Notes under the pieces: model-generated
Told to the model about the DNA's origin: nothing
Database searches by the model: none
The model's input: only the letters and a program-made list of their open reading frames with translations
Shown: positions 8,940 through 59,466 of the stretch, in pieces
Layout: each line of letters begins with the position of its first letter
How positions within the stretch are numbered: position 1 is the stretch's first letter
NCBI RefSeq assembly: GCF_013367775.1
Contig: NZ_CP055157.1
Span: forward strand, 1,591,001 to 1,655,000
DNA from: Microbulbifer sp. YPW1
GTDB taxonomy: Bacteria; Pseudomonadota; Gammaproteobacteria; Pseudomonadales; Cellvibrionaceae
Direction of reading: 5' to 3'
Length of the DNA stretch: 64,000 nucleotides
Position numbers and translations under genes: made by a program

Positions 8940-9024
8940 GACACTACCTTCTATGGTTCAAGCTGTGCAGTTTAGCGGCATGGCGGGGTGCTGGCGAGCC
9001 TTGGCTTGTTTTGGCGTTGGTGGC

Positions 9025-9136
9025 GGTAGTGATGCCGGTGGGCCTATGCGGGACACGCCGTGAACCCATCCCTGGGGGCTCTTCCGCGAGGTCCCTCTCG
9101 CGGAAGGTCCCGCATAGGCCCACCGGCACCACCACC
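9025..9136 (-). repeat. Structured intergenic element A1 (GGA-loop hairpin family)
   Basis: Perfect 22-bp outer arms lie at 9033-9054 and 9107-9128. Pairing continues outward for eight more positions with two A/C mismatches in the given strand, which become U-G wobbles in minus-strand RNA. Inside are a conserved 27-base core (9055-9081, centred on CCCATCCCTGGG) and a perfect 9-bp hairpin (9082-9105, loop GTCCCT). On the minus strand the two loops read AGGGAT and AGGGAC. The element lies 94 bases upstream of hexR, with the GGA strand sense to hexR. Confidence 0.85.
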
Positions 9137-9205
9137 TTCGCTTCGGGTCTCTGAGTTTTGGGCAAATTTTGCGAGTCAGACAGGACTCGAATGCTAAGGG
9201 GCTGA

Positions 9206-9304
9206 TACCGGATATAGCTTTGCGGGACCGTCTGCGGCCAGGACGGCCGCAGCCGAGCCCCCAGGGATGGGTTCACGGCGTGTCCCGCAAAGCTATATCC
9301 GGTA
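9206..9304 (+). repeat. Structured intergenic element A2, inverted copy
   Basis: Perfect 23-bp outer arms (9206-9228, 9282-9304) differ from those of A1 apart from the inner GCGGGAC end. The same 27-base core appears in opposite orientation at 9255-9281, and an 8-bp hairpin lies at 9232-9252 with loop AGGAC. Here the GGA-loop strand is plus, sense to uvrD. The element ends 43 bases before the uvrD LexA box, so it probably lies upstream of the main uvrD transcript unless another promoter reads through it. Confidence 0.85.
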
Positions 9305-9346
9305 GCAGGCCCGCCACCGAACCTTATTCGGGCGCACCACAAAACC

Positions 9347-27517: not shown

Positions 27518-27531
27518 CGAAGTGCTGTGGC

Positions 27532-27643
27532 GGCGGGGCACCGGGTGCAGGTTTTCAGGACCGCTGCGAGTACATCCATGTACGCTGCGTCGCAAACGTC
27601 CCTGTTTGCGACGCTCCTGAAAACCTGCACCCGGCACCCCGCC
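27532..27643 (-). repeat. Structured intergenic element B1 (GGA-loop hairpin family)
   Basis: Perfect 20-bp arms (27541-27560 and 27615-27634) are extended by a further 7 bp (27532-27538 with 27637-27643) across two CA/CA positions, which become tandem U-G/G-U wobbles on the minus strand. Inside are GTAC-ATCCAT-GTAC (27570-27583) and a perfect 11-bp hairpin (27587-27614, loop GTCCCT). On the minus strand the loops read ATGGAT and AGGGAC. The GGA strand is sense to the TRAP permease genes, on their 3' side. Confidence 0.85.
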
Positions 27644-27712
27644 TTCGCTTCGTGTTGCACACTCCGTAGCCGCGGCTGTAACTGCTCACGAAGTATGAAA
27701 GTTCAATGCGAA

Positions 27713-27824
27713 GGTAGAGTGCCGGGTAGGCGTTTTTGAAAGCGTCGGAAACAGGGATGTTTCCGACGCAGGCTACAGGGACGTATTCATGCCGGTTTCA
27801 AAAACGCCTACCCGGTGCGCTACC
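27713..27824 (+). repeat. Structured intergenic element B2, inverted relative to B1
   Basis: Perfect 20-bp arms (27722-27741 and 27796-27815) share only their outer CCGGGT end with those of B1. Flanks GGTAGAGTG and TGCGCTACC extend the stem with tandem G-U/U-G pairs and one A/G mismatch. Inside are a perfect 11-bp hairpin (27742-27769, loop AGGGAT) and TAC-AGGGAC-GTA (27774-27785). The GGA strand is plus, sense to cusA on its 3' side. B1 and B2 fill most of the 337-base gap between the convergent operons; no ordinary terminator was seen there. Confidence 0.85.
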
Positions 27825-27854
27825 GCCACCGGGCCAGCGCAGAAACCACGCAAC

Positions 27855-44707: not shown

Positions 44708-44781
44708 GATGGTTGGGCCATCTTTTTGAGTGAGGAGTCGGGGCAATACTGAAATCGGTAATGCGCAGGACTCTAAGCGAA

Positions 44782-44893
44782 GGCGGAGTGCCGGGTGCGG
44801 GTTTTCAGGATCGCCGGCGACACGGATGTCGCCGACGAAGCGTACAGGGATGTATTCACTGCGGTCCTGAAAACCCGCACCCGGTGCTCCGCC
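44782..44893 (+). repeat. Structured intergenic element B3, between phoB and phoR
   Basis: Perfect 20-bp arms (44791-44810 and 44865-44884) are extended nine positions by GGCGGAGTG/TGCTCCGCC with tandem G-U/U-G pairs. Inside are an 11-bp hairpin with one C/A mismatch (44811-44838, loop ACGGAT) and TAC-AGGGAT-GTA (44843-44854). Bases 44842-44853 read GUACAGGGAUGU as RNA, a full match to the CsrA SELEX consensus. The GGA strand is plus, antisense to phoB-phoR, unlike the other copies. Confidence 0.85.
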
Positions 44894-44942
44894 GCCACCG
44901 GGCATTCACATTGGAAACCCAAATTTTTCAAGGACGGTAGGA

Positions 44943-45647
44943 TTACACCCTTTCCACGGTCTGTACAGAAAAGCGGTAGCCGGTGCCGCGCACAGTCTGG
45001 ATATAGCGCTCGTGGCCATCGATGGTGAGTGCCTTGCGCAGGCGGCGGATGTGTACGTCCACGGTGCGCTCCTCTACATACACGTTGCCACCCCACACGT
45101 GGTCCAGCAACTGGGTGCGGGTATAGGCGCGCTCCTGATGAGACAGGAAGAAGGTCAGCAGGCGAAACTCCGTCGGCCCCATGTCCACCGGGTTGCCATT
45201 GATCGTCACCCGGTGACTGATCGGGTCCAGCACCAGGCCGCCGGCGGTCAGCGGCTCTTCCGGCGTACTCGGACCCGCCCGGCGCAACACCGCCTTCAGG
45301 CGCGCCACCAGTTCGCGGGGAGAAAACGGCTTGGTGATGTAATCATCTGCACCCGTCTCCAGCGCCTTGATCTTGTGATCCTCCTCGCCCTTCGCCGTCA
45401 GCATGATGATCGGCAGCGAAGACGTCAGTTCATCCCGCTTCAGGCGCCGCGCCAGTTCCACCCCGGAAACATCCGGCAGCATCCAGTCGAGCAGGATCAG
45501 GTCCGGCTTCTCATCGATTACCAGCGCGTGTGCCGCCTGGGCATTTTCTGCCTCGAGACAGCGGTAATCCGCCATCTCCAGGGCAATTCGCAACATGTCC
45601 CGTACCGGGGCCTCGTCGTCGACTATGAGAATCGTCTTGTTGTGCAT
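44943..45647 (-). CDS. phoB: Phosphate regulon response regulator PhoB
   Basis: A 234-residue OmpR-family activator. The receiver domain has acidic residues DDE at 10-12, phospho-acceptor Asp54 (LILLDWMLPDV), and the KPF motif near 105. The winged-helix domain (about 135-230) contains GPTEFRLLTFFLSHQERAYTRTQLLDHVWG and VDVHIRRLRKAL. When phosphorylated by PhoR it binds Pho boxes such as those at 30002 and 45723. Its own promoter carries one, so autoactivation is predicted. Confidence 0.97.
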   Translation of the reverse strand: MHNKTILIVDDEAPVRDMLRIALEMADYRCLEAENAQAAHALVIDEKPDLILLDWMLPDVSGVELARRLKRDELTSSLPIIMLTAKGEEDHKIKALETGADDYITKPFSPRELVARLKAVLRRAGPSTPEEPLTAGGLVLDPISHRVTINGNPVDMGPTEFRLLTFFLSHQERAYTRTQLLDHVWGGNVYVEERTVDVHIRRLRKALTIDGHERYIQTVRGTGYRFSVQTVERV

Positions 45648-58476: not shown

Positions 58477-58657
58477 AAAATTTCAGTTCCAGTGTGGGTT
58501 CGCCCGGCCGGGCGAGATGGGCAAATTCTGTTGTCCGACCGGCTGGCCATTGCCGCGGACGGACCTAGTGTGACTATTCTACCGGACCGCGCGGTGTACG
58601 CAAATCGATCAGTGGGCTGATTGCGCACAATCCCCGGTTTTATTGGGTTTCTTGGCG

Positions 58658-58769
58658 GCGCTACTACCGGGTACAGCCTTGTGAGACACGCCGTGAACCC
58701 ATCCCTGGGGGCTCTTCTAAAACATCCCTGTTTTAGAAGGTCTCACAAGGCTGTACCCGGTAGCAGCGC
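58658..58769 (-). repeat. Structured intergenic element A3, between gmk and rpoZ
   Basis: Perfect 24-bp arms (58664-58687 and 58740-58763) extend by 5 bp past one A/C position that becomes a U-G wobble on the minus strand. The 27-base core (58688-58714) is identical to that of A1. A perfect 9-bp hairpin (58715-58738) has loop ATCCCT. On the minus strand both loops read AGGGAT, and 58733-58722 matches the CsrA consensus at 11 of 12 positions. The minus strand is sense to gmk-rpoZ. Confidence 0.87.
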
Positions 58770-58800
58770 TTTCGGGGCAAGCTCAAGTTGCTTGGATGGC

Positions 58801-59466
<666 letters not shown>

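Follow-up and report, generated by a model that had tools for sequence, protein, structure and literature searches.

Six copies of a long palindromic element lie in the window, the whole 64,000-nucleotide stretch analysed here from Microbulbifer sp. YPW1. An earlier note on this DNA had listed these copies, and the window sequence bears out all six. It had also claimed that one strand of each copy carries GGA in both loops; by eye, on sequence and folds, GGA is present in 12 of 12. This strand, hereafter the GGA strand, is plus in the copies named by their starts as 9206, 27713 and 44782, and minus in copies 9025, 27532 and 58658. Four of the copies form two inverted pairs. The elements at 9016-9139 (minus) and 9196-9321 (plus), with diverging GGA strands, have an RpiR-type regulator gene on one side and a uvrD-type gene on the other. 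Those at 27523-27646 (minus) and 27710-27833 (plus) separate convergent RND-transporter and DctM genes. The element at 58648-58772 (minus) is 3' of the guanylate kinase gene (58801-59421, minus) and its GGA strand is sense to that gene.

The sixth copy (44779-44902, plus) had been flagged for its match to the CsrA SELEX consensus. It is antisense, between phoB (44943-45647, minus) and phoR, and its arms are at 44782-44814 and 44861-44893. According to the fold, with positions counted on the sequence, hairpin 1 (44813-44837) has the loop ACGGAT at 44822-44827. Hairpin 2 (44840-44863) holds GTACAGGGATGT at 44842-44853, followed by a TTCAC bulge. As the earlier note had it, GTACAGGGATGT fits RUACARGGAUGU at 12 of 12 positions. 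Our gene caller scored the copy 'inside antisense', and the PhoR open frame can be extended across it. If PhoR starts at the methionine of MLDRS, the copy is upstream of phoR. Note that, because the copy is antisense to phoBR, the phoBR mRNA would not contain the perfect CsrA consensus. A cis role at phoBR is unsupported.

Each of the 12 strands of the window copies was folded. The z scores ranged from -9.2 to -13.9, and none of 200 shuffles was equally stable; fold energies of the six GGA strands were -71.4 to -93.1 kcal/mol. The element is about 120 nt long, and a long outer stem closes a three-way junction with two GGA hairpins. Read along the GGA strand, a GAAGG-like lead-in (in this genus) precedes the 5' arm and hairpin 1, with its GGA loop. 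Hairpin 2 follows, again with GGA in its loop and with a 3'-side bulge of the TTCAC type, then the 3' arm and, in this genus, a GCCAC-like tail. No match in the window exceeded the gathering threshold of Rfam release 15; the best weak match was Ysr224 (23.9 bits against a threshold of 70). Across 18 other element-bearing loci, the one Rfam match was RNase P and none was to an element. We did not find the element described or named in the open-licence literature searched.

The repeat was said to be scattered through the genome, and this is the case. We built a covariance model, R1, from 50 aligned copies of the window's own genome, called G000 here; other G and L numbers denote relatives' genomes and fetched loci. 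The 50 copies were picked by a core pattern that included the second GGA and allowed up to three substitutions. With 150 of 2088 first-look candidates scored, R1 gave at least 143 matches in G000 at E <= 0.01. Manual removal of opposite-strand echoes of the palindrome left at least 119 distinct places. Conservation of the loop GGA had been set beforehand as the point on which the idea would stand or fall at the sequence level, and the triplet is conserved both in the genome and across the class. The GGA of either loop is invariant among the 50 aligned G000 copies. Two or more GGA hairpins were found at 108 of the 119 places by a mechanical test and at 2 more on inspection; the remaining 9 are truncated, shortened by the model match or altered in a loop. 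Of 267 terminal hairpin loops on the GGA strand, 223 contain GGA; none of the 273 on the opposite strand does. The distance from GGA to GGA is 22-24 nt in 107 of 119 copies. The loops are kept while the stem sequences differ, with pairing held by compensatory differences.

To describe the fold across the class, we took a single copy from each of 60 loci, most of them in different genomes, and aligned these copies over 43 pairs. In this alignment 91.0% of cells are paired. Covariation is 0.799, compared with 0.185 for shuffled and at most 0.167 for slid controls, and 858 cells changed on both sides compared with 274 in shuffles. The number of pairs with a double change was 36, which is not above shuffles (50 of 500 reach 36). 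The alignment supports the three-way junction, which reads GAC, hairpin 1, A, GCC, hairpin 2 loop, bulge, GGC, GT and GTC. Note that the search pattern imposed hairpin 2 and the GTGTC end, and that hairpin 1 was free of it. The GGA of hairpin 1 is nonetheless kept in 119 of 125 copies from named genomes (108 by a mechanical rule and 11 by inspection).

A few variants (L162, L203, L229 and the G000 copy at 336807) have three or four hairpins, and the extra ones mostly carry GGA. Two long copies in G001 have an insert hairpin: its loop is GATGGA in copy 160237, and in copy 37056 it lacks GGA. An extra hairpin in the G000 copy around 1283903 also lacks it. The extra hairpins without GGA, in G001 37056 and the G000 1283903 region, therefore argue against a strict expansion of valency. 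We also observed that in several G000 copies, 769323, 1076382, 2163590 and 3135633 among them, hairpin 2 is separated from the 3' arm by an additional GGGGGGCGCCTAGCTC-like stretch. A CTTACGAAG-like motif is frequent in the spacers of pairs and in the lead-ins of single copies (for example, G000 1275630/1275834). It is sometimes part of an inverted repeat and also occurs downstream of some copies.

Related genomes also carry the element. With 147 candidates scored in each genome, R1 matched 22 of the 24 genomes from the same genus; the counts, which include echoes, ran from 0 to 145. In the class sample, at least 44 of 274 genomes, G000 among them, were matched at E <= 1e-5. Only 12 candidates were scored per genome, and some of the 230 genomes without a match are likely to be misses. 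A class-wide model, R2, gave between 38 and at least 150 matches, echoes included, in each of six named genomes. In the family to which Pseudomonas sp. WN033 belongs, R2 matched at least 57 of 398 genomes when 9 candidates were scored in each. A pattern scan of named genomes matched at least 120 stretches, from Microbulbifer, Marinobacter, Xanthomonas, Stenotrophomonas, Halopseudomonas, Pseudomonas, Oceanisphaera, Rheinheimera, Haliea, Alcanivorax, Cellvibrio and others. Among the matches listed, all titles are gammaproteobacterial except one, labelled Bacillus subtilis. That locus, L195 (JAHREJ010000009.1, titled Bacillus subtilis SK7B5), holds one copy and probably reflects contamination or a wrongly labelled record. 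The titles of twelve loci in L131-L250 name Microbulbifer; the GAAGG-like lead-in and GCCAC-like tail are common to these named loci and the G000 copies. Two viral contigs fit a core pattern of the element. One of them, IMGVR_UViG_3300001731_000180 (L252, 10649-13101), has two diverging copies 2.4 kb apart, and the single ORF of at least 120 aa between them is a 354-aa frame.

We then asked which strand is constrained. The two arms of each copy were aligned without favouring wobble. Read on the GGA strand, mismatches in 118 of the 119 G000 copies (one short copy was left out) were of the G.U type in 170 cases, of the A.C type in 10, and of other kinds in 100. An A.C mismatch in this count would be G.U on the opposite strand. 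Removal of positions 7-10, which hold a recurrent tandem wobble, left 75 G.U against 9 A.C. In a sign test per copy, 88 copies lean to G.U and 3 to A.C. Named genomes gave 161 G.U, 23 A.C and 148 other mismatches (113 of 125 copies, arms of at least 12). Because copies share ancestry, p-values for this asymmetry overstate independence. The G.U to A.C ratios are 58:2 for copies sense to their neighbours, 66:4 for antisense copies and 35:4 for those in convergent gaps. The asymmetry is thus equal in these three gene contexts, and the structured strand is the GGA strand irrespective of how the neighbours run. We conclude that a one-strand, RNA-like constraint on the element is strongly supported.

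The earlier proposal, in which the family may be a CsrA-binding module, is partly supported. The constraint, in mismatches and covariation alike, fits its RNA-level part. Of the two roles proposed there, that of cis sites is poorly supported. Gene contexts in G000 came from a simple gene caller based on codon usage. The GGA strand is sense to both neighbours for 48 copies and antisense to both for 38, and the flagged copy itself is antisense between phoB and phoR. A role as decoys is possible, provided that the GGA strand is transcribed. The antisense copies (66:4) are as asymmetric as the sense copies (58:2); hence, read-through from neighbours cannot be the whole story. We found no convincing promoter belonging to the element in a scan with sigma-70 boxes; scores were 7.86 and 7.64 on the two sides (p 0.049). 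An intrinsic terminator on the GGA strand was considered and rejected: TTTT occurs within 25 nt after 5 of 119 copies, and 21 of 119 on the other side.

We infer that the element acts at the level of RNA and that its partner is a Csr/Rsm protein. In this reading, the elements are a high-copy, REP-like intergenic family whose working form would be a folded single strand with GGA, most likely RNA. Read-through or antisense transcription would produce the GGA strand as RNA, and its two GGA loops would then be bridged by a CsrA/RsmA dimer. Jointly, the copies would make up a pool of scattered Csr/Rsm sites by which the regulator is titrated or positioned. For the putative core of this reading, a folded GGA strand bound by CsrA/RsmA as a dispersed site pool, we judge the chance to be a little short of even.

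On paper, the features of the element fit published Csr/Rsm sites, and binding, although putative, is plausible. The target of RsmE is a hairpin with an ANGGAN hexaloop, and CsrA selected RUACARGGAUGU in SELEX (PMC7652899). Both CANGGAYG and AUGGAUG are given as Csr/Rsm motifs (PMC7705225). The first of these, a C-G-closed loop of the ANGGAN type, fits 169 of the 248 GGA hairpin loops scored, and some subtypes have five-base loops. The 22-24 nt between the loops falls inside the range over which CsrA is described to bridge sites, 10-63 nt with an optimum above 18 (PMC7652899). In the same source, most SELEX hairpins have four contiguous pairs or fewer and very stable structure is perhaps a disadvantage (PMC7652899); hairpin 1 of the element is longer than this. 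The conserved junction and the TTCAC bulge are not explained by CsrA, and so count against the CsrA reading.

Known Csr/Rsm systems offer comparisons. CsrB/CsrC and RsmX/Y/Z are sRNAs that carry many sites at a single locus. Like the element, these RNAs have several GGA hairpin loops of the ANGGAN type, spaced within the bridging range. Unlike them, the element is repeated across the genome, places its two sites within a long outer stem and has no Rfam match. A further comparison comes from P. putida. There, the described targets of RsmA, RsmE and RsmI include intergenic sequences beside ISPpu8 copies or possible insertion sites, and one is called a 'long palindromic' region; a region downstream of PP_3547 is among the targets named (PMC7937890). 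These ISPpu8-associated targets of strain KT2440 are like the element in being intergenic and, in one case, long and palindromic, and were recovered in vivo with Rsm proteins; the comparison is by description only (PMC7937890).

We also compared the element with the distribution of csrA. From our table, CsrA was matched in 234 of 274 class genomes and in 39 of the 43 element-bearing ones other than G000. Co-occurrence across the class thus shows no enrichment and has no power. In the set of relatives, csrA was matched in 36 of 38 genomes, the exceptions being G000 and G018. In the four relatives whose csrA loci were inspected, a stretch of N, 2500 to 3501 bases long, is at or near csrA. In G008 it stops one base before a truncated csrA match; in the others it is 226, 400 and 790 bases away. 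We therefore rejected the lack of a csrA match in G000, which had looked like a refutation, as evidence in either direction. Most relatives have one CsrA-family match, and several have more (G003, 12; G004, 5; G006, 9; G009, 7; G010, 19; G014, 6). These multiple matches are mostly separate short open frames, with a few partial or containing stops. Element counts are lower in the same-genus genomes that have 5-19 csrA matches (0, 1, 2, 5, 11 and 51) than in the other 18 (Mann-Whitney p 0.011), although the correlation of element and csrA counts is not significant (Spearman p 0.14). Fewer elements where csrA matches are many is the opposite of what simple titration would predict. The comparison is confounded, and shared ancestry could explain it.

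The strongest alternative is that the elements are a REP-like miniature mobile family. The folded GGA strand, whether single-stranded DNA or RNA, would be read by a mobilising enzyme, and its resemblance to CsrA sites would be coincidental. Recognition would be at the two loops and the junction. We consider this a real possibility, somewhat less probable than the CsrA/Rsm reading. The strand asymmetry does not decide the matter. A hairpin of single-stranded DNA would yield the same sign of asymmetry, and G.T pairs are tolerated in single-stranded DNA. Stems of GTAG REPs are described as having GT pairing, which their authors take as a hint of RNA function (PMC3733652). Given these two points, the G.U asymmetry does not single out CsrA. 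The GT pairing in GTAG REPs (PMC3733652) moved our assessment slightly, down for CsrA/Rsm and up for REP-like mobility. In addition, asymmetry in antisense copies suits selection on the element itself.

Placement in the genome is also as expected for such a family. All but one of the 119 copies (118) are not enclosed in a predicted gene, with two overlapping a gene end by approximately 40 bp, and the last is the 'inside antisense' copy. There are 25 copies in convergent gaps and 7 in divergent gaps. Close pairs, within approximately 250 bp, are inverted in 20 of 20 cases in G000 (17 diverging, 3 converging and 0 in the same orientation). At other loci with two close matches, 21 of 23 are inverted (19 diverging, 2 converging, 2 in the same orientation). 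Flanks look conserved inside a lineage by eye. Published REP families agree with this in dimer rules and location, and their stems also contain GT pairs (PMC3733652). More fully, REP/BIME sequences and the element have in common a high copy number, intergenic location with few copies in divergent gaps, frequent inverted dimers, rare or absent same-orientation dimers, GT-paired stems and a suggested RNA role (PMC3733652).

Other features do not suit a REP family. GTAG and CGTC REPs are described as hairpins of 20-40 bp with a GTAG or CGTC tag, and CGTC REPs likewise lack a linked RAYT (PMC3733652). The element differs, being approximately 120 nt rather than 20-40 bp, with a three-way junction and at least two GGA hairpins. 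It has no consistent GTAG/CGTC tag (the lead-in is of the GAAGG type in this genus), and its arms vary between copies yet stay complementary. Nor was a linked RAYT found: G000 has three PF01797 (Y1 transposase) genes, and no element was found within 1.5 kb of them. Among 862 ORFs of at least 90 aa in 82 G000 loci, families recur in at most three further loci, and no transposase-like gene recurs beside the elements. The most recurrent neighbours resemble, by eye, ABC-type ATPases. One query each to a plasmid and a phage collection gave no match. Other repeats were also considered. Integron attC sites, ERIC and NEMIS were dropped, since the arms of the element vary between copies with pairing kept. 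The TwoAYGGAY RNA motif has, as its name says, loops with GGA. In a table of Weinberg et al. 2010, it has a line without an Rfam number (PMC2864571). The window and 18 other loci gave no Rfam match to an element; TwoAYGGAY is perhaps absent from Rfam.

The history of individual copies bears on the same alternative. We infer that the elements spread by copying. Cutting at the second loop was feasible for 107 copies, among which four groups of at least 3 have an identical or near-identical 53-nt core. In these groups (16 copies), the 5' arms have a mean likeness of 0.52, 0.75, 0.52 and 0.71, and are still complementary. Many sites are shared between genomes. Among 215 copies from eight same-genus genomes, both flanks are common to 98 cross-genome copy pairs. 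In four relatives, 53 of 100 copies have a same-site, same-strand copy in G000 (loci were chosen for strong copies). Strand is kept at shared sites: for single copies only, 32 copy pairs have the same orientation and 1 is flipped. That many sites are common to species with strand kept suits function in place rather than a mobile family. Core identity at shared sites averages 0.85, with approximately a third of the 98 pairs above 0.95 and approximately a sixth below 0.75; mean arm identity is 0.79. At L279/L303 the core subtype differs and the arms are nearly the same; in other pairs the whole element differs. We tried 'core swapped, arms kept' as a general rule and rejected it, since arms are on average less alike than cores. 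The sequences are consistent with exchange of the whole element, or of its core, at inherited sites, which may occur by gene conversion or re-insertion.

In a third reading, the element acts as an RNA structure at transcript ends, where it would block 3' exonucleases or offer a site to RNase III, and its loops would serve a different RNA-binding protein. This we regard as improbable. The long stem is stable enough (-71.4 to -93.1 kcal/mol in the six window copies), and 86 copies are between co-directional genes in addition to the 25 between convergent genes. Pairs are enriched in convergent gaps, which by a hand count hold 8 of 20 pairs compared with 9 of 79 single copies (p 0.006), and a diverging pair would give each transcript one GGA copy. 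However, palindromic stems would protect either strand, leaving the strand-specific loops and the wobble asymmetry unexplained, and the 38 antisense copies face against both neighbours. That the element is a palindromic repeat without function is very improbable: most class genomes (230 of 274, with 12 candidates scored in each) lack a match, but class-wide covariation, kept loops and strand asymmetry all argue otherwise.

Returning to CsrA/Rsm, the broadest form of the reading is a distributed Csr/Rsm buffer in Gammaproteobacteria. Genomes would carry up to 100 or more dual-site GGA modules, acting as folded RNA valves exposed by transcription in one direction, both spread and maintained as a REP-like repeat and gaining valency by added hairpins. 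We think this full picture rather unlikely. If it is true, global transcription activity would help to set the level of free CsrA with no dedicated sRNA. Should the elements bind CsrA/Rsm, they would rank among the most numerous classes of Csr site in many Gammaproteobacteria, environmental, plant-associated and opportunistic, and CsrA titration models built on a few sRNAs would have to be revised. If the ligand is another, the fold is still a class-wide structured family without an Rfam match. On either reading, there is a testable link between REP-like repeats and post-transcriptional regulation.
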